Positions 44,699 to 63,007 of a stretch of 64,000 nucleotides of DNA are shown piece after piece. Location of the stretch: the NCBI GenBank assembly GCA_020444325.1, contig JAHLLD010000008.1, positions 62,001-126,000 of the forward strand, given 5' to 3'. The notes beneath the pieces are model-generated. The model searched no databases and was not told the origin of the DNA. It saw nothing but the letters and a program-made list of their open reading frames with translations. The translations under genes and the position numbers were made by a program. The DNA is from a bacterium. Its GTDB lineage: Bacteria; Bacteroidota; Ignavibacteria; SZUA-365. The stretch's first letter is position 1. Every line of letters starts with the position of its first letter.

Positions 44699-45364
44699 TC
44701 AGCGTTTCAGATGCCAGCCAACGGTGTGATACTGCTCATCCTCAATATCGACGCGCAGGATGCATACGCCGGGAACGATGTACAGTACTTCGACGAGGCG
44801 GTTATTAAGCGCCACCTCGTAGCGGTTGCACAGCAATTCAATGCCAGTGGTCAGCATGGGAACGACAAGGTTGACGTCCGTCAGGCGTGTCGCGAATTCC
44901 GCACCGTTATACTGTGCCCAGGTTTCATCAGGTTGCGCCGGGTAGGGCAGGTGGAAGGAGAGCATAGGCTTTGAGTTGAGGCGAAGCGTATCATCAGGAT
45001 CCCCGGGCTGATAAAAGCCGAGTCCGGCACTGTCCTGCGCGAGCAGCATGGGAAATGCCCGCTTCGTTGTGCCCGCGGGACCGAGCAGGGTGCCATAACG
45101 CAGCAGGTAGTAGTTCATATTCTGGAAGGTCAGCTTGCGCATGAGCGCACCGATAGCGGAGCTGTTCGGCCTGGAGCGTGTTGTAACGACGTAAATCCAG
45201 AGATTCCCGTCTTCGAGAGGAAGCAGTTGATCCGGTCCCGTCGGCACGACCACGGGATCATTGCTCTCAGGAGACTTCAGCGGGGGATCGGAAGGGAAAT
45301 CACATGCCGTCAGCAGCAGAACGGCTGCAAATATCATGGACGCAATGTACCTGTATGTCATCAT
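44699..45364 (-). CDS. Lipoprotein in the first ECF sigma operon
   Basis: 221 residues; N-terminal signal with lipobox LLTAC (cysteine about residue 21), then PSDPPLKSPESND linker. The remaining domain is beta-rich (DGNLWIYVVTTRS, YYLLRYGTLLG, AQPDETWAQYNG) and matches no family I recognise. Its ATG overlaps the stop of the barrel-protein gene, so it is translated with the sigma/anti-sigma/barrel unit. Confidence 0.72.
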   Translation of the reverse strand: MMTYRYIASMIFAAVLLLTACDFPSDPPLKSPESNDPVVVPTGPDQLLPLEDGNLWIYVVTTRSRPNSSAIGALMRKLTFQNMNYYLLRYGTLLGPAGTTKRAFPMLLAQDSAGLGFYQPGDPDDTLRLNSKPMLSFHLPYPAQPDETWAQYNGAEFATRLTDVNLVVPMLTTGIELLCNRYEVALNNRLVEVLYIVPGVCILRVDIEDEQYHTVGWHLKR

Positions 45365-46836
45365 CAGAATGCCACCTGCACGCCGTAATGAATACCGAAC
45401 TTGGAGCTGACGTCGCTCTGCATGTGGAGAAGCACCGCGGGAGCGGCGTAGACATTTACGTTGCGAAACACCTGGTAGCGTGCACCGAATGCCGCTTCCA
45501 CGACCGGCGCGGAATCGGAGAACGCCGCGGAGGTCTGCAGGAAGGGCTGAAGCATGGCGCTGCCGATGTTCCAGCGCAGATAGGGTCCGACATATCCATA
45601 TGTGTAGCCCACAACGCCACCATAATCCGAAATACGTGCGACGTCCACATCGTCGCCGGGCGTTTCGTGGAAGGCATCCTGACCGACGACGACGCCGAGT
45701 TCGAGGCTGCTGGAAACGCGGTACCCGAGACGGAAGACGACATGCGTAAACATGTTGCGGAGTCCCCGCGCATTGTCCTGCGGGAACTGGTAGGCGATGC
45801 CACTTTCTGTTGAAAGGACAAAGTTATGAGACCCATCGCGCCGCAGCATGGTGATGGATTCCGGTTTCCAGGAATCCGCTTCGCGGCTTTTGATCAATGT
45901 GTGTTCGCTGTTGTACAATGTCGTACCTTCATCATCCCTTGCCACGAGCGTCGCCGTATAGCTGTCATCGGGCAGATCCTCCGCATCCCAGATCACATCG
46001 TAGGTCCCGGGTTTGCGCTGGCCTTCATCCAGCACACGTTCTTCGCCCTGTACGTGGATGGTCAGCCGCACCATGCTTGTCCGCGGGACGGCGTAGGTCA
46101 GCTGGGCCCTGTCATTGAACGGCTGCGGATAGCTTCCGGGAAGACTGAATTGATGCGGCGTCTCCAGTGTAATGAGCACGCCTTCGCGGAGGCGCTCAGG
46201 GACGGCGGGTTCGCCGCCGGGCAGCGTACTGTCCCACGACGGCAGATCAAATTTCAAGGGAAGATTCCCGTCGAGCTCGACCGAGCGGGAAAAGACTTCG
46301 CTGCTATGGAGTTCAAGGCGGTTGCCTGTTTCCCGTACAACCGCACGCTCGAGGAAAATCGTGGCGTTTAACCTGCCATCGACATAGCGCTGCGGAATCA
46401 GTGCGACACGAAGCATGTAGCGATAGCCTTCAGGAAGCATCGCCAGTTCTTCGCCGCTCTCTCCGGGACGAGGCAGATCGACGAGAATACCACCGGTGAA
46501 ATAGGATGTGGCCGCATCGTCGGGCGACACCGGTCGTGTGCCGACCTGGTGTTTTGAGGCAGTGGAAATGGCTCCCATCGCACCGTGCAGGTGCATGTCG
46601 ATCGGTCCACGCCGGTAGACGATATCTTCACCGTCGAGGCGGCGCAGGTATTCCACCGTACAGCCGAGTTTCGGCAGGCGTTCGTCGAGCGAAGCCTGTG
46701 CGATTGCCGAATTCACCTCCCGCTGGAAAATGTCTTCTTCACCGCTGCGAAGGGTGTACGGCGTGATGTCCTGTGCCTGCAGGAGGGAACCTGAAAACAG
46801 CAGCAGACCAAGTATGAAGGGAATCGACTGTTTCAT
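45364..46836 (-). CDS. Outer-membrane protein with internal FlgD-like domain and C-terminal barrel
   Basis: 490 residues with signal peptide MKQSIPFILGLLLFSGSLLQAQ. Residues about 236-305 form a FlgD/T9SS-tail-like Ig fold beginning SYPQPFNDRAQLTYAVP and running to YDVIWDAEDLPDDSYTATL; this fold is normally at the very C-terminus of secreted proteins but here is internal. Residues about 360-490 look like a small barrel (alternating strands, terminal HYGVQVAF). Start overlaps the stop of the anti-sigma gene, so it is coupled to it. Confidence 0.75.
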   Translation of the reverse strand: MKQSIPFILGLLLFSGSLLQAQDITPYTLRSGEEDIFQREVNSAIAQASLDERLPKLGCTVEYLRRLDGEDIVYRRGPIDMHLHGAMGAISTASKHQVGTRPVSPDDAATSYFTGGILVDLPRPGESGEELAMLPEGYRYMLRVALIPQRYVDGRLNATIFLERAVVRETGNRLELHSSEVFSRSVELDGNLPLKFDLPSWDSTLPGGEPAVPERLREGVLITLETPHQFSLPGSYPQPFNDRAQLTYAVPRTSMVRLTIHVQGEERVLDEGQRKPGTYDVIWDAEDLPDDSYTATLVARDDEGTTLYNSEHTLIKSREADSWKPESITMLRRDGSHNFVLSTESGIAYQFPQDNARGLRNMFTHVVFRLGYRVSSSLELGVVVGQDAFHETPGDDVDVARISDYGGVVGYTYGYVGPYLRWNIGSAMLQPFLQTSAAFSDSAPVVEAAFGARYQVFRNVNVYAAPAVLLHMQSDVSSKFGIHYGVQVAF

Positions 46837-47699
46837 TACTGTGATATTCTATCCGCGCTCGTCAGTTGTACGGAAGCGACGGTGACGAGCATTGCACTGT
46901 ACTGGTCGAGATAATTCTCGGTTTTTTCATGCGGAGTGAGCGTCTCGACGGGACGCGCATCCGCAAAGTATTCACCACTGTCGCCGTTGTTGTTTCTGTC
47001 TTCGGGCGTGACCGAGGGACGCTCTTCAGGATGCAGCTTGTTCGCGGGCGGTGTATCCACCTCGCCATGGTCCGCGCCGGTCCCGTTTCCCGCCATCGCA
47101 GGAGAGGACGCGGGTGTCGCAGGTCGCTGCTCCGTTGTCGAAACTGTTTGCGGCTGCTGCACTGAACTGGGAGCAGGGTTGTCATTGCGCGCAATGTACA
47201 CTTCGCGCGTAACCTCACGCAACTGCGTGACAGTATCCTTCTTGATGATGTACATCGTGTCGGTGAGCCGGGCGACCGGACTGCCGCTGATCGGCAGTGT
47301 TGTTTCGGGTCCGGGGAGAAGCAGCAGCACCAGCGCCGCAGCTGCAGCGGCTGTCGCCACGCCTGTGCCGAAGAGATGGACAAGTCGGAATCGGCGGGGC
47401 GCCGGCGCAGGTGCCGCTGCGGGAACAGCGGTGGACGAAGTGTCGGTGTCCTCGGCGGCGGAATTGTCAACCGCCAGGGATGCAATGCGACTGTTCAGCG
47501 CTTCATGCAATGTGGGAGGGACGGTGACATCGTCACGCAATTTCCGCAGCTTCAGTGACAGAATCAGATGCTGTCGAAGCTGCTCGGCGACTTCCGGATC
47601 GCGTTTGCAGGCGTCGAATAACTCCCGTTCCTGTTCGGCCGTGCTGCCACGGTGCAAATAGGCGGTGATCAGTTCCTGGATGCGCTCATTCATAATCAT
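46836..47699 (-). CDS. Membrane-spanning anti-sigma factor (partner of the ECF sigma upstream)
   Basis: 287 residues. The cytoplasmic N-terminal region (1-105) has the acidic, helical LFDACKRDPEVAEQLRQHL core typical of FCB-group anti-sigma factors; one transmembrane helix (about 106-128); then a periplasmic Pro/Thr/Ser-rich region (130-287). It has no zinc-binding HxxxCxxC motif. The start overlaps the sigma gene by 14 bases (8 if the second ATG at 47693 is used). Confidence 0.82.
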   Translation of the reverse strand: MIMNERIQELITAYLHRGSTAEQERELFDACKRDPEVAEQLRQHLILSLKLRKLRDDVTVPPTLHEALNSRIASLAVDNSAAEDTDTSSTAVPAAAPAPAPRRFRLVHLFGTGVATAAAAAALVLLLLPGPETTLPISGSPVARLTDTMYIIKKDTVTQLREVTREVYIARNDNPAPSSVQQPQTVSTTEQRPATPASSPAMAGNGTGADHGEVDTPPANKLHPEERPSVTPEDRNNNGDSGEYFADARPVETLTPHEKTENYLDQYSAMLVTVASVQLTSADRISQ

Positions 47700-48204
47700 T
47701 CAATATCGGTTCGAGAATCTTATGCAATTTCTGTTTTGCCCGGTGGATGCGCACTTTCACGTTGGAGAGGCTTGCACCGGTAATTTCCGCGATTTCCTTC
47801 ATCGAAAATCCTTCAAATTCCGCCAGCAGCAGTGCTTCCCGGTAATCGTCCGGCAGCTGATCCAGAGCCCGGTGGAGATGTTCTGCCTCGTTGCGCTCCA
47901 CCGCGCCATCACCGGTGACCAGAAAACGTTCCGCATTATCAATCGGCACTGAGCGTTTGTCGCTGCGCTGACGCGATTTCAGATTGTTCAGGCATTCGTT
48001 GCGCGCGATGCGGAAAAGCCAGTTTGCTTCCTTTCCTTCCTCGCGCAGTGTATGCAGCGACTGATACGCCTTCACAAACACCTCCTGATACACGTCATTG
48101 GCCAGATCCCGGTCACTGAGAACGTAAATGCAATAGGCGAGTATGCGCTTGTCGTAAAGCGCGTATAATTCGTTAAAACGCTGTCGCCGTTCGCGTTCGT
48201 TCAT
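47686..48204 (-). CDS. ECF-type RNA polymerase sigma factor (module 1)
   Basis: 172 residues. Region 2 is seen in DRDLANDVYQEVFVKAYQSL and the following NWLFRIARNECLNNL; region 4 helix-turn-helix in LLLAEFEGFSMKEIAEITGA. No sigma1.1 or region 3, so it belongs to the ECF class. It heads a tightly overlapping minus-strand operon of anti-sigma factor, barrel protein and lipoprotein. A candidate autoregulatory promoter is at 48285-48311. Confidence 0.95.
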   Translation of the reverse strand: MNERERRQRFNELYALYDKRILAYCIYVLSDRDLANDVYQEVFVKAYQSLHTLREEGKEANWLFRIARNECLNNLKSRQRSDKRSVPIDNAERFLVTGDGAVERNEAEHLHRALDQLPDDYREALLLAEFEGFSMKEIAEITGASLSNVKVRIHRAKQKLHKILEPILNDYE

Positions 48205-48284
48205 CTGTATTCCGGGGAAGCGCGTTCATGTCAGTTGTCCAGTTTACAGGCCGGGCTTTTATGTACTTGACCTGTCAGAAAACT

Positions 48285-48311
48285 GACAATCCGCATCCTG
48301 CGATGGTTACA
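48285..48311 (-). promoter_or_regulatory. Candidate ECF promoter of sigma module 1
   Basis: Minus strand TGTAACC (48305-48311), 17-base spacer, GTCAG. An AAC-containing -35 and a GTC-containing -10 element are typical of ECF-recognised promoters. The same TGTAACC...GTC pair stands upstream of the second ECF gene at 50769. The -10 lies about 80 bases before the sigma start codon. An inverted repeat TGTCAG-AAAA-CTGACA (48273-48288) overlaps the -10. The rest of the 48205-48474 gap has no convincing gene. Confidence 0.45.
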
Positions 48312-48474
48312 GGGGAATTGGAAATGCAGGAGAAAAAATACGGCTCGCTGAAGACAAGCGCCAGTAAAGGAAGTCCGGGAATACAAACCGCCTGCCGGTT
48401 GTTATACCATGTAATGGGCAGGTGCGCCGAAAAATGCTACTTTATCTGCCAGGTATCATGAACACACAGAGACC

Positions 48475-49059
48475 ATGAACACAAAAACGAACAAAAAGCC
48501 GGGGACGAAGAGGCGCTTCCCTTCGCCGCTCATCATTATCGGACTCACGGTAATCGCTCTGACCATCATCTTTCTCCTTATTTCAAACTATCTGATGGAT
48601 CATCGGGACCCGGAGATCACCCGTGTGATCAAGCAGGAGCGGGAGCAGCCGGCACATGAGGCAATCCAGTTCCGTAACGACGCGATGCTGTATTTCACCG
48701 AAGCGGAGGGCGATACCCTCACCTCCATCGCCGTCGAAATCGCGGAAGACGAGAATACACGGACGCAGGGCTTAATGGGAAGGGAACATATGGGCGAACA
48801 GCAGGGCATGCTGTTCATTTTTCCGAATGAGGAATATCGGTCGTTCTGGATGGCGAATACGCCCCTGCCGCTGGACATTATCTTCGTCAACAGCGCAGGC
48901 AGCATCGTTACCATTCAGCGCAATACCATTCCATACTCGGAAGAATCCGTCCCATCCACGGCGCCGGCGACGTATGTCGTCGAAGTCAATGCCGGGTTCT
49001 GTGACAGACACGGCGTGAGGGAAGGAAATTTCGTACGATGGATTCGAGAGGAGATGTGA
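48475..49059 (+). CDS. DUF192 family membrane-anchored protein
   Basis: 194 residues. One N-terminal membrane anchor (about 17-40), then a DUF192 domain with the family block RTQGLMGREHMGEQQGMLFI and FWMANTPLPLDIIF, facing the periplasm. The role of DUF192 is not established. First of a four-gene plus-strand unit with an HMA lipoprotein, a redoxin and a rhomboid; its TGA overlaps the next ATG. Confidence 0.9.
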   Translation: MNTKTNKKPGTKRRFPSPLIIIGLTVIALTIIFLLISNYLMDHRDPEITRVIKQEREQPAHEAIQFRNDAMLYFTEAEGDTLTSIAVEIAEDENTRTQGLMGREHMGEQQGMLFIFPNEEYRSFWMANTPLPLDIIFVNSAGSIVTIQRNTIPYSEESVPSTAPATYVVEVNAGFCDRHGVREGNFVRWIREEM

Positions 49060-49406
49060 TGAAGAAGATGAATCATACCATTCGGTTCTTGCTGCTGGTT
49101 GTCCCCGTGCTGCTGCTATTCACGGCATGCCAGCAGAATGCAGGGAACAGCAATGCGGAGGAGGAAGCTGCGGGAATGGCTGCCCCCGGTATCACCATGG
49201 TGCAGGTGTCGGCACCCGGTATGCACTGTGACGGATGCACGGCGACAGTGGAGGAGACGCTTGCGAAAATGCAGGGTGTGGATTCGGTGCATGCCGATCT
49301 CGAAAGCAAGGAGGTCACGGTGTACTGTGATACCACGCAGACCGCACGCGCTGCGCTTGTGGGAATGATCGACCGGCTTGGTTTCTCAGAGGCTCCAGGC
49401 AAATGA
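49059..49406 (+). CDS. Lipoprotein with heavy-metal-associated (HMA) domain
   Basis: 115 residues from ATG 49059. Signal with lipobox LLFTAC, linker, then a complete HMA fold: metal motif GMHCDGC in APGMHCDGCTATVEETLAK, followed by VDSVHADLESKEVTVYCD. HMA domains bind Cu(I), Zn or similar metals and normally occur in cytosolic chaperones or P-type ATPases; here the domain is on a membrane-anchored lipoprotein outside the cytoplasm. Overlaps its neighbours at both ends (TGATG and ATGA). Confidence 0.88.
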   Translation: MKKMNHTIRFLLLVVPVLLLFTACQQNAGNSNAEEEAAGMAAPGITMVQVSAPGMHCDGCTATVEETLAKMQGVDSVHADLESKEVTVYCDTTQTARAALVGMIDRLGFSEAPGK

Positions 49407-50098
49407 GCATGGATCTCAGGCGCAGTGTCGGACTCCGCGTTGGTGTGGCAGCGGCGGCCCTATTGCTGCTGCTCAGTGTAGTGCTCTTCGTGGATGGCGA
49501 ATCCGCCGGAAGCGTGGAAGAACCCCTGGTCTGCAAGGATGATGCGGAGTCCCGGCTCTCCCCGGTATTCGGATCGCGTATGAGCGACGTCGCTCTCGTC
49601 GACATGGACCAGCGTCCCGTCATGCTGCACGATCTTGCAGGCAGACGTCTGACCACAGTGATATACTGCTCATACCGTTGTCCCTGCTCCGATGGTTATA
49701 TCGACAGGTTGCGAGACTTGCGCACTGCGTTTGAACAGCGTGGCGTGTCTTTTATCGCAGTCAACGCCAACGCGGATGAAAATGTCGACGGCATGCAGGA
49801 TTATATCGAACGGAAAGACTACCCTCTTCCCGTGTACAGGGACGACATGTCCGCCGCTGCGGATATGATGCATGCGACCGTCACCCCGGAAGTCTTCGTC
49901 TTTGATCCCGCCTGGCAGCTGCAGTATCATGGACGCATCGATGATGATAAGAGCGGGTTTTTCGTGGAAGAAGAGTCCCTTCGCCTCGCGCTCGATTCCC
50001 TGCTTGCGGGGGGGACACTCAGGCACAAGGAGAAAATGAGCCTCGGCTGCGCCATCGTGCGCGACCGCCCGCTGGAAGCCGCACTTCCAAAACACTGA
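49403..50098 (+). CDS. Membrane-anchored redoxin (thioredoxin-fold) protein
   Basis: 231 residues with an N-terminal anchor (about 12-30). Thioredoxin-like fold of the redoxin/AhpC-TSA type: MLHDLAGRRLTTVIYCSYRCPCSDGY gives the active-site region, with cysteines in C-S-Y-R-C-P-C rather than a classical CxxC. Later FIAVNANADEN and TPEVFVFDPAWQL match the family. It starts four bases before the HMA lipoprotein ends. Possible role in metal or thiol handling in the periplasm, inferred from the neighbours. Confidence 0.82.
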   Translation: MSMDLRRSVGLRVGVAAAALLLLLSVVLFVDGESAGSVEEPLVCKDDAESRLSPVFGSRMSDVALVDMDQRPVMLHDLAGRRLTTVIYCSYRCPCSDGYIDRLRDLRTAFEQRGVSFIAVNANADENVDGMQDYIERKDYPLPVYRDDMSAAADMMHATVTPEVFVFDPAWQLQYHGRIDDDKSGFFVEEESLRLALDSLLAGGTLRHKEKMSLGCAIVRDRPLEAALPKH

Positions 50099-50114
50099 TC
50101 GTCATGGATTTTTG

Positions 50115-50741
50115 ATGCAGCAACTCCAGTTTATGCTATCGCACGCTCCGGCGTCTCTCGTCATTCTTGTTGTGACGACGGTTGTCAGTCTCATCGCATT
50201 TCGCAGCAGAACGCTGACGGAAAAATACCTGCTTTTTCCATGGAAGGTGTACCATGGGAAGGAGTATTTTCGGGTGATCAGTTACGGCTTCCTGCATGCG
50301 GATTACATGCATCTCGCGTTCAACCTGATCGCACTCTACTCCGTCGCGATGTATATCGAGGCAGTCACGGGAACGGGCCGCTTCCTCGCGATCTACTTTC
50401 TCTCCATGCTCGGAGCAGCATTGCCACCGGTGTGGGTGAAGCGGAATACCATGGATTACAAGGCCCTCGGGGCGTCCGGCGCTGTTTCGGGACTGTTTTT
50501 CGCGGGAATGCTGTATTTCCCGACGGCCAAAGTCATGCTGCTGTTTCTGCCGATACCGCTTCCCTGGCCTGTTTTCGCCGTTCTTTTCATCGCAGGAAGT
50601 GTCATTGGAGCGAAGCGGAACTGGGGAAATATCGGTCACGATGTGCATCTCTACGGTGCGGCGACCGGTTTTTTCACGACAATATTGCTTGATCCGGGCT
50701 CGTTGGGGGTGTTTTTCCGGGGAATCGGGCTTTCGCCCTGA
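50115..50741 (+). CDS. Rhomboid-family intramembrane serine protease
   Basis: 208 residues from ATG 50115 (a TTG one codon upstream is possible). Five to six membrane spans. Rhomboid signatures: HADYMHLAFNLIALYSV, GASGAVSGLFFA with the catalytic serine in GASG, and IGHDVHLYGAATG with the catalytic histidine. Substrate unknown. It ends the DUF192-HMA-redoxin unit. Confidence 0.9.
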   Translation: MQQLQFMLSHAPASLVILVVTTVVSLIAFRSRTLTEKYLLFPWKVYHGKEYFRVISYGFLHADYMHLAFNLIALYSVAMYIEAVTGTGRFLAIYFLSMLGAALPPVWVKRNTMDYKALGASGAVSGLFFAGMLYFPTAKVMLLFLPIPLPWPVFAVLFIAGSVIGAKRNWGNIGHDVHLYGAATGFFTTILLDPGSLGVFFRGIGLSP

Positions 50742-50768
50742 ATTGCTGCATTCCAGCGTGTATCTTTA

Positions 50769-50796
50769 TGTAACCCACTTCGTAAAACGGTGTCTA
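50769..50796 (+). promoter_or_regulatory. Candidate ECF promoter of sigma module 2
   Basis: TGTAACC at 50769-50775, 16-base spacer, GTCTA at 50792-50796, about 50 bases before the sigma start codon. The -35 heptamer is identical to the one upstream of the other ECF operon (48305-48311, minus), which supports recognition by the neighbouring sigma factors. Confidence 0.5.
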
Positions 50797-50845
50797 TTCA
50801 CTGGTAACCGCCAGAAACAGGCGATCAATTACAGCGCATCAACGG

Positions 50846-51409
50846 ATGCCTGAAAATTATAGCAGACATACCGACGAACAGCTCTTCGAGGCGTTCAAAC
50901 AGAGCGGCAAGGAGAAGGACGCGGCTTTCAGAGAGCTGTTCTCGAGGTACGAGCGAAAAGTCTACATGTTCAGCCTGCGGTTGTGCGGAAACCCGGATGA
51001 TGCAAACGACATTTTCCAGGAAACGTTCACGCGCTTTTACAAGCAGACGCTCAAAGAAAATGAACGTGTCAGCAACATCCTTGCCTATCTCCTGACCAGT
51101 GCGCGCAATGTGTTCCTGAACACACGCCGCAATAAGGTGTACTGGTCGCCGTTCGAGGATGAACAGATCGCTGATCGCGTTCCGATGTACGAACGAAAAG
51201 AACTGTTATCCATGATCAGCTCCGCGCTGGAATTGCTTGACGACACCTACAGGGAAGCGTTCATCCTGCGCTTTTACCAGGGGCTGTCATACAAGGAGAT
51301 CGCGGAAATTACGGGGGACTCTGTTTCCTCGCTCAAGGTGCGCGTCATGCGGGCCAAAGACCAGGTGCGCAGCATTCTGCAGCCATACATTGCTGATCTT
51401 TCACGATAG
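50846..51409 (+). CDS. ECF-type RNA polymerase sigma factor (module 2)
   Basis: 187 residues. Region 2 NPDDANDIFQETFTRFYKQ and region 4 FYQGLSYKEIAEITGDSVSSLKVRVMRAK are clear. It is a different protein from the module 1 sigma factor but follows the same plan, including a membrane anti-sigma protein encoded 32 bases downstream. Confidence 0.95.
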   Translation: MPENYSRHTDEQLFEAFKQSGKEKDAAFRELFSRYERKVYMFSLRLCGNPDDANDIFQETFTRFYKQTLKENERVSNILAYLLTSARNVFLNTRRNKVYWSPFEDEQIADRVPMYERKELLSMISSALELLDDTYREAFILRFYQGLSYKEIAEITGDSVSSLKVRVMRAKDQVRSILQPYIADLSR

Positions 51410-51441
51410 AAATTTCTAAAGTCCAGGCATAGACCATTACA

Positions 51442-52866
51442 ATGCAGTCCACGGAATTACTTCACCGCTTTTTTGACGAAGGACTCGACGACGCCCTCGA
51501 AGACGTGCTGTTCGAACGCATGGCCGTTGACGCGGAGCTTCGTCAGGAATTCCTGCAGCATCAGAAGCTGCACCATATGATACAGGAGGATGTGGCCGGT
51601 ATTACAACACCGTCGCATGTGTCTCAGCAGTTGTTCATCAATCTCGGCCTCACTCCTCCTGCTAATACTTCAACGCAGCCGGCAGGCATCGGCAAACGCA
51701 TGGGTGCCGCTGCGGCGCTCGTCGGCAACGCCCTCATCAAGGGACGCCGCTATGTATTCACCGCAGCAATATCCGCACTCGCAACTGCCGTCCTGGTCCT
51801 CAGCATTTCTCCTGATCAGGATGTCCCCGTCCAGCAGGCGAAAGTGACCGATACGCCGGCCGCGACTACCATTTCACCACAGGTGACGCCTCAACACACA
51901 GAGACAGAGGATGGAGTGTCCGCCACCCCGGGCACCGCTGTTCCATCCTCCCTGTCTTCCTCCGCGGCGGCCGGCGGTCACCGGTCCGATCTCCTGCAGT
52001 CACGCAGCAGCAATACGCGTTCCTCCGCGGGACGCGGCATCTCCACCGCAGGAGTTTCCGCTGCTGATGCACTGCGTGGCGATGGAAGCGCGGTGCCCGT
52101 TACTCTGGCAGCGCTGCCAGATCCCGCATCGCTCGTGACCCGCCGGGATGCAGAAATTTCGGGTGCCGGGATCCCGCTTCGTGGCAACCTGAGTGGTGCA
52201 GGGATGGACGATGAGGCTGCGCTGCAGGCGCTCGTCGCACGTACGACACCGCAGGAACTGCCCAGCACGGAAGGCGACAGGCCCTGGCATTTCTTCCAGC
52301 CAGGTCCCCGCACGAACATCCTCAGCAACATGGTGTTCGAACTGCGCAAGGTGTACGGACAGTCGTATCCGACCGTGGACCTGCCGCATAACTCACACAA
52401 CCTCTTCGAGAACATGGCCATCAGTGCCGTGTACAAGGTCACCGATCACCACGCCTTCGGGTTCGAGTATGGACGCGAAGCCTTCGGCAGGGAATACGTG
52501 ACGCTCGGTGCACCGACAGCACCGAAGCTCGACGGCTCCATGCAGGAAATCTATACGCCGCCATCGCCGGCCATGGCCGAGCAGGTGCGGGAGAACCGTA
52601 TGGTGGATGTCATCGGCGCGGTCTGGAAACTCTCCATGCCGGAATACGGGATGTTCCGTTTCGTCTATCCGTACATGCGAACCTTCGTGGGCGCTTCGCT
52701 GCTCGGACCGGTGAGCAAGGTGCGGGTCGGACTCGAAATGTTTCCTTCCAATTACTCCATGCTCAATGTTGGACTCGAAGGCGGTCTGCTGCGCTACTCC
52801 GTCGATGAATCCGTGTACTACACCAGCAAGTTGAATTTCACCGTAGGCGTCGCCATCGGTTTCTGA
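51442..52866 (+). CDS. Anti-sigma factor fused to a barrel-like C-terminal domain
   Basis: 474 residues. N-terminal 1-70 (LLHRFFDEGLDDALEDVLFE, ELRQEFLQHQKLHHMIQED) matches the anti-sigma plan of module 1. One transmembrane helix at about 104-122. A Pro/Ser/Thr-rich linker (123-270). The last ~190 residues (from RPWHFFQPGPRTN) alternate like outer-membrane beta strands and end in LNFTVGVAIGF with a terminal Phe. It could span inner membrane, periplasm and outer membrane. In module 1 the anti-sigma and barrel parts are separate, overlapping genes. Reading frame is continuous; no frameshift seen. Confidence 0.72.
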   Translation: MQSTELLHRFFDEGLDDALEDVLFERMAVDAELRQEFLQHQKLHHMIQEDVAGITTPSHVSQQLFINLGLTPPANTSTQPAGIGKRMGAAAALVGNALIKGRRYVFTAAISALATAVLVLSISPDQDVPVQQAKVTDTPAATTISPQVTPQHTETEDGVSATPGTAVPSSLSSSAAAGGHRSDLLQSRSSNTRSSAGRGISTAGVSAADALRGDGSAVPVTLAALPDPASLVTRRDAEISGAGIPLRGNLSGAGMDDEAALQALVARTTPQELPSTEGDRPWHFFQPGPRTNILSNMVFELRKVYGQSYPTVDLPHNSHNLFENMAISAVYKVTDHHAFGFEYGREAFGREYVTLGAPTAPKLDGSMQEIYTPPSPAMAEQVRENRMVDVIGAVWKLSMPEYGMFRFVYPYMRTFVGASLLGPVSKVRVGLEMFPSNYSMLNVGLEGGLLRYSVDESVYYTSKLNFTVGVAIGF

Positions 52867-52888: not shown

Positions 52889-54115
52889 ATGCATCGCATC
52901 CTCCTCGCTGCCCTGGGTGTTGTCGTCCTGCTCTCCGCATGCTCGGATGAAACGTCAGGACCCGCCGAGCCGACCCCGATGCGGTCGCTCAGCGCCAGGG
53001 AAGCTTCGATTAACAAGTCCAACAGCGCATTCGCTTTCCGTATTTTCAATACGGTCGCGCAGTCTCAATCCGATAAAAATATTTTCCTCTCCCCACTCAG
53101 CATCAGTATGGCGCTGGGCATGACCATGAATGGGGCACGAGGCGATACGTGGGAAGGTATGCGCACCGCGCTGAGCCTGGAGCAACTCTCCCCGTATGAT
53201 ATCAACACTGCATGGCAGGGACTGCGCGACGTTCTGCTGCATGCGGATCCGGCCGTGCAGTTGACCATCGCAAATTCAATCTGGTGCAGGAACGGATTTC
53301 AGGTCGAGCAATCTTTCGTCGATACGAACCGCTATTATTTCGATGCCGAAGTGCAGAGCCTGGATTTCAATGCTCCCACGGCTGCCGGCATCATTAACGA
53401 CTGGGTAAGCACAAATACCGCAGGACGTATCCCCACCATCATTGATGGACCGATCTCTCCGCTCACCATGATGTACCTGATCAATGCAGTGTACTTCAAG
53501 GGCAACTGGTCGACACGCTTCGATCCGGAGCGTACGCACGATGCGCAGTTTCATGCGGCTGGCGGCGCCACGCAGACCGTGCGCATGATGCAGCGCGAAT
53601 CAACCATGCGCTATGTGCATAACGGCAGCGTACAGATCGTTGATCTTCCTTACGGGTGGGATCGTTTCAGCATGGCCATTTTGCTTCCAACAGGAGAAGG
53701 GTCGCTCGCCGATGTGCGCGAAGCGCTGGCGGAAGAGGGAAACTGGACGGCGTGGATCAATGCCCTGCAGGACAGGGAGATCATGCTGCAGCTGCCGCGT
53801 TTCCGCATGGAATATGAGATCCCCCTCAAGGACGCGCTTACAACGCTTGGCATGGAGCAAGCGTTCAGTCCCTACAGTGCCGATTTTACAGGGATCAATC
53901 CTGAGGGTGAGCTTTACATCAGCAGCGTCAAACATAAAACTTTTGTTGAAGTAAATGAGGAAGGCACCGAAGCCGCCGCGGTGACTTCCGTTGAAGTGGG
54001 CGCTACCTCAGTACCTCCAGCACTGATCGTTGATCGCCCGTTCGTATTCGTTATCCATGAGCGCAATACAGGCGCAGTGCTGTTTATTGGACAGGTCAAC
54101 AAGATACAGAGCTGA
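52889..54115 (+). CDS. Lipoprotein serpin (serine protease inhibitor)
   Basis: 408 residues. Lipobox LLSAC (cysteine 18). Full serpin fold: NIFLSPLSISMALGM, NDWVSTNTAGRIPTII, MYLINAVYFKGNW and the C-terminal RPFVFVIHERNTGAVLFIGQV. The hinge EEGTEAAAVTS has the small residues needed for loop insertion, so it is probably inhibitory. Aligned with alpha1-antitrypsin, P1-P1' falls on Thr-Ser (GATSVPP), which hints at an elastase- or subtilisin-like target. It follows the fused anti-sigma gene by 22 bases and ends at a terminator. Confidence 0.93.
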   Translation: MHRILLAALGVVVLLSACSDETSGPAEPTPMRSLSAREASINKSNSAFAFRIFNTVAQSQSDKNIFLSPLSISMALGMTMNGARGDTWEGMRTALSLEQLSPYDINTAWQGLRDVLLHADPAVQLTIANSIWCRNGFQVEQSFVDTNRYYFDAEVQSLDFNAPTAAGIINDWVSTNTAGRIPTIIDGPISPLTMMYLINAVYFKGNWSTRFDPERTHDAQFHAAGGATQTVRMMQRESTMRYVHNGSVQIVDLPYGWDRFSMAILLPTGEGSLADVREALAEEGNWTAWINALQDREIMLQLPRFRMEYEIPLKDALTTLGMEQAFSPYSADFTGINPEGELYISSVKHKTFVEVNEEGTEAAAVTSVEVGATSVPPALIVDRPFVFVIHERNTGAVLFIGQVNKIQS

Positions 54116-61570: not shown

Positions 61571-63007
61571 CTACAGATTCTTGAACAGGGCGATTGCCTT
61601 GTCTTTCTGCTCTGCATGATCGACGATGGGGTGGGGATAGTTTTCACCCAGAACACAGCCCGCTTCCTGCTGTGCAAACAGGTCGGCGTCATGCGGCCAG
61701 TGAATGTGCCCTCCGGTGAATCCTGCCAATTCCGGCAGATGCTCCCGAATGTAACTCCCGTCGGGATCGTACTTTTTGGACTGCAGGACGGGATTGAATA
61801 TGCGGAAATAGGGAGCTCCGTCAGCGCCCGTGGAAGCGGACCACTGCCAACCCCCGTTATTGGCGGCCAGGTCGTAATCGAGGAGTCCTTCCGCGAAATA
61901 CGCTTCCCCGCGACGCCAGTCCACCAGCAGATCCTTGGTGAGGAACATCGCCACAACCATGCGCAGCCGATTGTGCATCCAGCCCGTGGCATTGAAATGC
62001 CGCATGGCCGCATCGACGATGGGGTAACCCGTGCGTCCCTCGCACCATGCGGTGAACTCTTTGTCTCCTCCGGGCCAGCGTATGCTGTTGTACTCTGCTT
62101 TGAAACTGTGATTGACCACATGCGGGAAACGGTCGAGCAGCATCTGGTAGAATTCCCGCCAGATCAGCTCGTGCAGCCAGGTCTGTGCGCCTTCTTCATC
62201 CGATTCCCGTGCGTGGCGAACGCATTCCCGAATCGAAATCGTACCGAAACGCAGATGTGCCGAGAGGCCCGAAGTGCCCTTCCGCGCCGGGTAATCCCGG
62301 TCCTCCGCATACCATTGCAGGGAGGGCAGGAATTCCTCAAGCCTCTGCTGCGCAGCATCCTCACCGGCTTCGAGCCAGGTGTCGGATCGGGTGAAACCAA
62401 GATCCTTGAGCGACCATGTGTCACTGTGTCGCTTCAGCGATGCACGGGTGGCCAGCGACTTGTCGCGTATGTACTCTTCCGCCACCGGACTATGTCCGAG
62501 ACGCTCTTCTTCTTCGAGTCGTTCGAGCCAGGCCCGCCGGTACGGGGTGAATACCTTGTAGGGATCACCACTTTTTGTCAGGATCTCGTCGCGGTGATAC
62601 ACCACATGATCCTTGAACGCGTGGAACGCACGGCCATCCTGCACCAGTGCTTCGGCTATGGCGTCGTCGCGTACACGCGCGTAAGGCTCGTAATCATCAT
62701 TGACGAATACCGCGTCGGCGTCGCAGTCCGCTGCCAGCTTCGGGATGCGGATCATCGGGTCGCCGTGCAGAACGACAAGATCCGATCCACGTCCACGCAG
62801 TGCATTCTGCAGTTTCGCGAGTGCATCGTGGATGAAGCTCAGCCTCCGGTCGCCGCGGTTCGCGATGTCGTCGAGAATATTGCTGTCGAAAATGAAGACG
62901 GGGATGACGCGGCGTGATCTGCGGGTGGCTTCCGCCAGTCCGCGGTTATCGGTCAGGCGGAGATCGCGCCGGAACACAAAAAGTACGGTGTCGAAAGATG
63001 ACTGCAT
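61571..63007 (-). CDS. phrB: Deoxyribodipyrimidine photolyase (class I CPD photolyase)
   Basis: 478 residues. N-terminal antenna-binding domain (VLFVFRRDLRLTDNRGLAEA, residues 8-27) and C-terminal FAD-binding domain with TGYPIVDAAMRHFNATGWMHN and WRRGEAYFAEGLLDYDLA-NNGGWQW. It repairs UV-induced pyrimidine dimers using blue light. The tryptophans of the electron-transfer chain are present in WQW and other places. Cryptochromes and (6-4) photolyases share this fold, so the substrate is inferred. Confidence 0.92.
   Translation of the reverse strand: MQSSFDTVLFVFRRDLRLTDNRGLAEATRRSRRVIPVFIFDSNILDDIANRGDRRLSFIHDALAKLQNALRGRGSDLVVLHGDPMIRIPKLAADCDADAVFVNDDYEPYARVRDDAIAEALVQDGRAFHAFKDHVVYHRDEILTKSGDPYKVFTPYRRAWLERLEEEERLGHSPVAEEYIRDKSLATRASLKRHSDTWSLKDLGFTRSDTWLEAGEDAAQQRLEEFLPSLQWYAEDRDYPARKGTSGLSAHLRFGTISIRECVRHARESDEEGAQTWLHELIWREFYQMLLDRFPHVVNHSFKAEYNSIRWPGGDKEFTAWCEGRTGYPIVDAAMRHFNATGWMHNRLRMVVAMFLTKDLLVDWRRGEAYFAEGLLDYDLAANNGGWQWSASTGADGAPYFRIFNPVLQSKKYDPDGSYIREHLPELAGFTGGHIHWPHDADLFAQQEAGCVLGENYPHPIVDHAEQKDKAIALFKNL

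Follow-up and report, generated by a model that had tools for sequence, protein, structure and literature searches.

The 64,000-nucleotide stretch analysed here (the window; assembly GCA_020444325.1, contig JAHLLD010000008.1, forward-strand positions 62,001 to 126,000; GTDB lineage Bacteroidota, Ignavibacteria, SZUA-365) holds two operons, each led by a gene for a sigma factor of the extracytoplasmic function (ECF) type, and both are probably sigma/anti-sigma switches wired to an outer-membrane barrel, which would tether one membrane to the other. In module 1 (minus strand) the anti-sigma factor and the barrel protein are separate, in module 2 (plus strand) they form a single polypeptide. Gene order, architecture, the homology between split and fused forms, and a conserved promoter common to both modules, together with its other sites, were computed; most likely both modules report the status of the outer membrane or of type IX secretion. 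The window comes from a genome of 4.6 Mb whose close relatives are metagenome-assembled genomes; NCBI taxonomy currently ranks Ignavibacteriota as a phylum of its own next to Bacteroidota.

The split and the fused module

An original prediction, made from the letters of the window alone, held that anti-sigma factor and barrel work as one device, encoded separately in one place and fused in the other. As direct BLASTP between the proteins of the two modules was not significant (E 0.037 and 0.19), profiles were needed for the comparison. A hidden Markov model (HMM) of the fused protein was built from 19 fused proteins, none of them from module 1 or 2; its N-terminal half found the module 1 anti-sigma factors (E 3.3e-11 for the one in the window), and the final ~140 positions of the model, through to its very end, found the module 1 barrel proteins (window 2.5e-7, best orthologue 3.8e-10). 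Against open reading frames (ORFs) from generic PF13505 loci the best E was 0.28, with nothing resembling the barrel half below E 3.8. In hhalign, the module 1 anti-sigma factor matched the fused N-termini at 96.9% (E 1.3e-10), the module 1 barrel protein the fused proteins at 96.5% (E 8.6e-10), and the barrel regions alone one another at 96.9% (E 1.4e-10) over ~130 residues to the very C-terminus, whereas eight generic outer-membrane barrels of the same genomes scored 0.44% and a reversed control profile 0.66%. Specificity is lower for the N-terminal match, since this profile also finds ordinary anti-sigma factors of other classes. To judge by these profiles, the module 1 anti-sigma factor and barrel protein are the homologous halves of the module 2 fusion, a true split counterpart, and for this reason the idea of a single device in two forms goes beyond analogy. 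This part of the claim was supported, and the original interpretation as a whole in part.

The fusion itself is a stable architecture. The module 2 profile matched that of the 19 fused paralogues of the class over its full length (hhalign 100%, E 2.6e-45), and a homologue search, proposed along with the original prediction, yielded 49 unique fused proteins of full length from across the class, 48 of which have an ECF sigma gene directly upstream. Because orthologues within genus and family (38–54% identical) share the fusion as well, chance or an assembly error is excluded. Distant fused relatives occur across the class, several per genome (five matches in genome G000), and a single genome of this Ignavibacteria-related class can hold as many as five or six copies. 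Both modules share one contig in eight genomes (G000–G004, G006, G008 and G009), genome G007 has module 1 only, and orthologues of the module 1 barrel protein are present in every sampled member of the family. A tree of the sigma factors groups those of the split modules in one clade, confined to the family of the window (Shimodaira–Hasegawa-like approximate likelihood ratio test, SH-aLRT, 99). This clade is nested in a larger one (99) whose remaining members are fused-linked sigma factors and, from f5 and f12, three others; this nesting does not settle fission versus fusion. Two of these three belong to a third arrangement (L141:1585-5162 and L142:1819-5725), in which an ECF sigma gene is followed by genes for a short anti-sigma factor (219/269 residues) and a protein of 707/724 residues with a C-terminal OmpA peptidoglycan-binding domain, the final two genes overlapping by 4 bases in L142. 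A further variant may be present at L005:3-1208, where a protein of ~400 residues that weakly matches the fused family at its N-terminus (E 0.013) follows one more of the genome's ECF sigma factors.

The 474-residue plan predicted for the fused protein, with a helical N-terminus, one span, a linker and, at the C-terminus, a beta region whose last residue is Phe, agrees with what was found. An AlphaFold2 (AF2) model based on seven sequences (mean predicted local distance difference test, pLDDT, 37.7; predicted template modelling score, pTM, 0.25) shows four N-terminal helices (pLDDT 60–75, the best part of the model), a helix at 103–122, a disordered linker and seven long strands between 327 and 472. 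The 19-residue stretch of peak hydrophobicity begins at residue 105, P/S/T/A/G make up 55% of residues 124–290, and the protein ends in GVAIGF. The linker spans ~170 residues in the window and ~80–240 in the family (median 124, a rough estimate); if extended, it would be long enough to bridge the periplasm. N-termini of relatives match the anti-sigma model NF052375 at 1e-6 to 1e-7, under its cut-off, and RseA_N and zf-HC2 weakly; for the anti-sigma and barrel proteins of both modules no convincing Pfam match was obtained.

A barrel is the likeliest interpretation of both C-terminal regions; for module 1 the model itself points to it, for module 2 the argument comes chiefly from homology. Modelled by AF2 (four sequences, mean pLDDT 54), the module 1 barrel protein has an N-terminal beta domain at 28–225 (pLDDT mostly 60–80), a domain resembling immunoglobulin (Ig) folds, and exactly eight strands from 338 to 489; at a probability of 1.00, Foldseek returned NspA (1p4t, TMt 0.68), OmpA, Ail and OmpW. 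OMP_b-brl (PF13505) matched 3 of 12 orthologues weakly (best E 0.0021, the gathering score not being reached) and neither the window protein nor the fused protein. An eight-strand barrel is the best reading of this modelled domain. For the fused protein, the structure prediction proposed earlier gave the long strands and a Foldseek list of mostly outer-membrane barrels, none of them below E 0.05, and at low confidence; its C-terminal region is likely a barrel on account of the homology to module 1 rather than of its own model. The further statement that no fused barrel was known fails, as the Dma family of Bacteroides thetaiotaomicron has exactly that order (PMC13088901).

Operon members and the common promoter

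The predicted gene coordinates and order of both modules proved correct (Table 1), with the fourth, overlapping lipoprotein gene of module 1 as an addition. Within module 1, sigma and anti-sigma genes overlap by 14 bases, and anti-sigma and barrel genes by 1, as do the barrel and lipoprotein genes. The lipoprotein matches no Pfam family, and its orthologues sit directly downstream of the barrel gene in loci L075, L076 and L078. The barrel protein consists of a signal peptide, the N-terminal beta domain, an Ig domain similar to FlgD and to the C-terminal domains (CTD) that serve as type IX sorting signals, and the eight-strand barrel. By phmmer this Ig domain matches cargo-like proteins with E down to 1e-11, the matched parts lying at the C-terminus of those proteins, and three of the 12 orthologues match FlgD_ig (best E 0.0019). 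A type A CTD stands at the extreme C-terminus; since the Ig domain (residues 222–305) precedes the barrel instead of ending the protein, it is, by its sequence relations, CTD-like and not itself a sorting signal. The anti-sigma factor ends in a tail, NYLxQYNxMLVSVESVQLTxxDRI, that is conserved in 11 orthologues beyond an otherwise variable linker. A docking contact for the barrel protein would be expected to take the form of such a conserved peptide where the linker ends in the periplasm, and the tail may have this role.

In module 2 the third gene, starting 22 bases after the fused gene, encodes a serpin, which keeps this position in loci L075–L077, L079, L080 and L014; by eye, its reactive-loop hinge EEGTEAAAVTS resembles the inhibitory type. 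The succession of sigma gene, Dma-like gene and lipoprotein-type gene recurs: a strict automatic lipobox test was positive downstream of 24/49 fused genes against a base rate of 7%, which is a lower bound, as by eye most of the remaining downstream genes also have a lipobox. The lipoproteins encoded after most fused genes (e.g., L144:3460-4203, L145:5719-7005 and L025:1998-2585) often start with C[DTSEK]SPLD..TPR, and the one downstream of the G000 paralogue C5 carries a von Willebrand factor A (VWA) domain.

Table 1. Features of the two modules, with positions in the window (aa, amino acids)
Feature	Position	Strand	Basis
Module 1 fourth gene, lipoprotein (CDFPSDPPLK...)	44699-45364	minus	1-base overlap with barrel gene; operon position kept in relatives
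Module 1 barrel protein, 490 aa	45364-46836	minus	AF2, Foldseek, orthologues
Module 1 eight-strand barrel, aa 338-490 (best reading)	45367-45825	minus	AF2 strand count; hhalign to fused barrels
Ig domain of module 1 barrel protein, resembling type IX sorting domains, aa ~222-305	45922-46173	minus	phmmer, FlgD_ig
Anti-sigma factor of module 1, 287 aa, with one span and a variable linker	46836-47699	minus	Fused-protein HMM and hhalign
Conserved C-terminal tail of module 1 anti-sigma factor, putative docking peptide	46839-46928	minus	Orthologue alignment
Module 1 ECF sigma factor, 172 aa	47686-48204	minus	Sigma70_r2 and Sigma70_r4_2, both over Pfam cut-off
Predicted autoregulatory promoter of module 1, TGTAAC-N17-TGTC	48285-48311	minus	Aligned in 10/10 orthologue upstream regions
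Predicted autoregulatory promoter of module 2, TGTAAC-N16-TGTC	50769-50794	plus	Aligned in 7/7 orthologue upstream regions
Module 2 ECF sigma factor, 187 aa	50846-51409	plus	Sigma70_r2 and Sigma70_r4_2, both over Pfam cut-off
Module 2 fused anti-sigma/outer-membrane protein, 474 aa (Dma-like)	51442-52866	plus	Full-length profile match
Predicted N-terminal helical anti-sigma domain, aa ~1-75	51442-51666	plus	Four AF2 helices
Predicted transmembrane helix, aa 103-122	51748-51807	plus	AF2 helix and hydrophobicity
Predicted disordered periplasmic linker, aa 123-290	51808-52311	plus	pLDDT 22-33; composition; variable in alignment
C-terminal beta-barrel-like domain, aa 291-474	52312-52863	plus	Low-confidence AF2 strands; homology to module 1 barrel
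Serpin lipoprotein gene, third in the module 2 operon	52889-54115	plus	Serpin E 3e-114

The promoter pattern TGTAAC-N16/17-TGTC has two copies in the window, both before the sigma genes (mean 0.13 in shuffles), and 17 exact copies in the whole genome. By a simple ORF rule, 12 of the 17 sites are intergenic compared with 1 of 21 reversed controls (Fisher one-sided ~2e-5), 11 lie at most 200 bp upstream of an ORF (0/21 for the controls), and for 10 the homologous gene in genome G001 or G008 also has the motif upstream. Apart from the two sigma genes, the targets are mostly genes for exported proteins: lipoproteins and five large proteins that end in the type IX sorting domain Por_Secre_tail, with a sixth that appears similar by eye. 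A lipoprotein family of 291–371 residues without a Pfam family has the motif in three genomes (L148, L163, L190 and L213), and the motif also stands before the gene of a small, non-exported protein of ~81 residues that is 78–91% identical between species (L155, L202 and L207). Before other fused modules the common promoter was absent, five of the six matches being module 2 orthologues; the fused paralogues carry conserved elements of a related yet distinct kind (GTAAC with GTTA or GTTAT).

Proposed mechanism and competing explanations

In module 2, the N-terminal domain would hold the sigma factor at the inner membrane, the linker would cross the periplasm, and the barrel would sit in the outer membrane; in module 1, the separate anti-sigma factor and barrel protein would probably be joined non-covalently through the C-terminal tail of the former. 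A change at the outer membrane, be it a barrel that is not inserted, a bound ligand or a disturbance of type IX secretion, may then pass along the tether or the docking contact, upon which the released sigma factor would transcribe its own operon and genes for exported proteins, type IX cargo included. We infer from this layout a direct link between inner and outer membrane. Several results weigh against this account as a whole. The fused protein was modelled poorly and without significant Foldseek matches, a profile of the 49 fused barrels found nothing among Protein Data Bank sequences at E ≤ 1, and the module 1 barrel model, on which the fused barrel leans by homology, is only moderate. Likewise, the promoter pattern is not enriched in total (17 copies versus 21 for the reversed control), and the genome has 17 ECF sigma factors that could share it; because of the latter, the assignment of the sites to the regulon of the module 1 and 2 sigma factors is only plausible.

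Conceivably, the barrel is a mere outer-membrane anchor or an assembly-dependent degradation signal, such that the modules report the failed insertion of an outer-membrane protein (a fault of the beta-barrel assembly machinery, BAM, or envelope stress, sensed in a manner similar to RseA/DegS) and neither ligand nor secretion. This is a realistic possibility, though we lean away from it. A terminal aromatic residue typical of BAM substrates is present in 40/49 fused proteins, linker and outer-loop sequences are very variable, the eight-strand fold offers no clear channel, and RseA_N matches 4/19 relatives weakly. However, paralogues of the same genome (G000 has five matches) differ in their -10 elements (TGTC versus GTTAT) and third genes (serpin, VWA lipoprotein), which suggests specific rather than general signals. 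A view in which the C-terminal region of the fused protein is a non-inserted beta domain sensing the periplasm, with a true barrel in module 1 only, appears rather improbable; it would suit the low-confidence model and the lack of a significant Foldseek match, but is at odds with the strong homology to the module 1 barrel up to the very C-terminus, the long antiparallel strands, the terminal Phe and the precedent of Dma. Cell-surface signalling of the FecI/FecR/FecA type with an unusual receptor is very improbable: ECF sigma factor, anti-sigma factor and outer-membrane protein do occur together, and among NCBIfam models TIGR02985 (Bacteroidetes sigma subfamily) fits the module 2 sigma factor best, although at 88.7 bits against a cut-off of 126.4 (the best NCBIfam models for the sigma factors fall below cut-off), but FecR, STN, Plug and TonB-receptor families are absent from every module protein (Pfam, E ≤ 1), and the barrels would have 8 strands and not the 22 of such receptors. 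On these grounds membership in the FecI/FecR/FecA group was rejected.

As regards type IX secretion, the modules may be unrelated to it, with the promoter copies before cargo genes simply mirroring the abundance of such genes, a prospect that deserves to be taken seriously even if it is not the one we would expect. With at least 150 Por_Secre_tail matches in the genome, some sites are expected by number, and for this reason the enrichment is only moderate; still, 5 of the 15 non-sigma sites precede Por_Secre_tail genes where 4–8% would be expected, and homologous genes in two other genomes retain the site. A more ambitious version would have the fused and the split device, neighbours that share their promoter, keep watch on type IX secretion at the outer membrane, with the CTD-like domain of the module 1 barrel protein as sensor, and set the expression of type IX cargo and surface lipoproteins; it is speculative and on balance unlikely.

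Relation to known systems

The closest precedent, described in work from 2024 to 2026, is the Dma family of B. thetaiotaomicron, which combines an anti-sigma domain, a transmembrane helix, a disordered tether and a C-terminal barrel next to an ECF sigma gene; loss of Dma frees the sigma factor and raises vesiculation, and the family was stated to occur solely in Bacteroidota (PMC13088901). The Bacteroides work describes phenotypes of vesiculation and glycan utilisation (PMC13088901 and its reference 16, PNAS 2024). Compared by architecture, not by sequence, the fused protein of the window has the matching domain order (its barrel being a likely one), the adjacent ECF sigma factor and a further operon gene, and by this analogy the notion that it works like Dma is well supported; a plasmid tblastn search for Bacteroidia relatives gave no match. 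Sigma factors of group ECF21, bound and inhibited by their anti-sigma domain, would be a further mark of Dma members. The window modules differ from Dma in coming from an Ignavibacteria-related lineage instead of Bacteroides, in the split homologue next door, in the serpin as third gene, and in a promoter common to both modules that has type IX cargo genes among its other sites. No description of the split homologue or of a link to type IX cargo promoters was found in the literature searched; the fused form has its precedent in gut Bacteroides, while the split form looks new, as do the genes for secreted proteins that are apparently under module control.

The Dma architecture is thereby extended to an Ignavibacteria-related class. 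So far, the view that Dma-type anti-sigma factor and barrel function as one unit has been argued from architecture and from genetics in one gut species, and the natural pair of fused and split forms adds evolutionary evidence. Since the link between anti-sigma factor and barrel must be non-covalent in the split form, it opens a direct test of the tether question, and the promoter shared by both sigma operons and secreted-cargo genes provides a testable target set.

In Porphyromonas gingivalis, PorXY-SigP with the CTD protein PorA likewise places type IX genes under an ECF sigma factor and lets a CTD-bearing envelope protein feed the signal; that system, however, uses a two-component system without a trans-envelope anti-sigma factor and controls apparatus genes (PMC4800418, PMC7712824), whereas the promoter sites described here precede cargo and lipoprotein genes. 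FecI/FecR/FecA resembles the modules in its three-part chain from outer membrane to sigma factor and differs in its FecR, STN, Plug and TonB-receptor domains, to which the modules oppose small barrels and an anti-sigma/barrel fusion. SigX-CfrX-OprF of Pseudomonas, a proposed mechanosensing complex, joins an ECF sigma factor, a putative anti-sigma factor and an OmpA-type outer-membrane protein and is reminiscent of the L141/L142 arrangement, although CfrX is soluble and no fusion is involved (PMC8999054).

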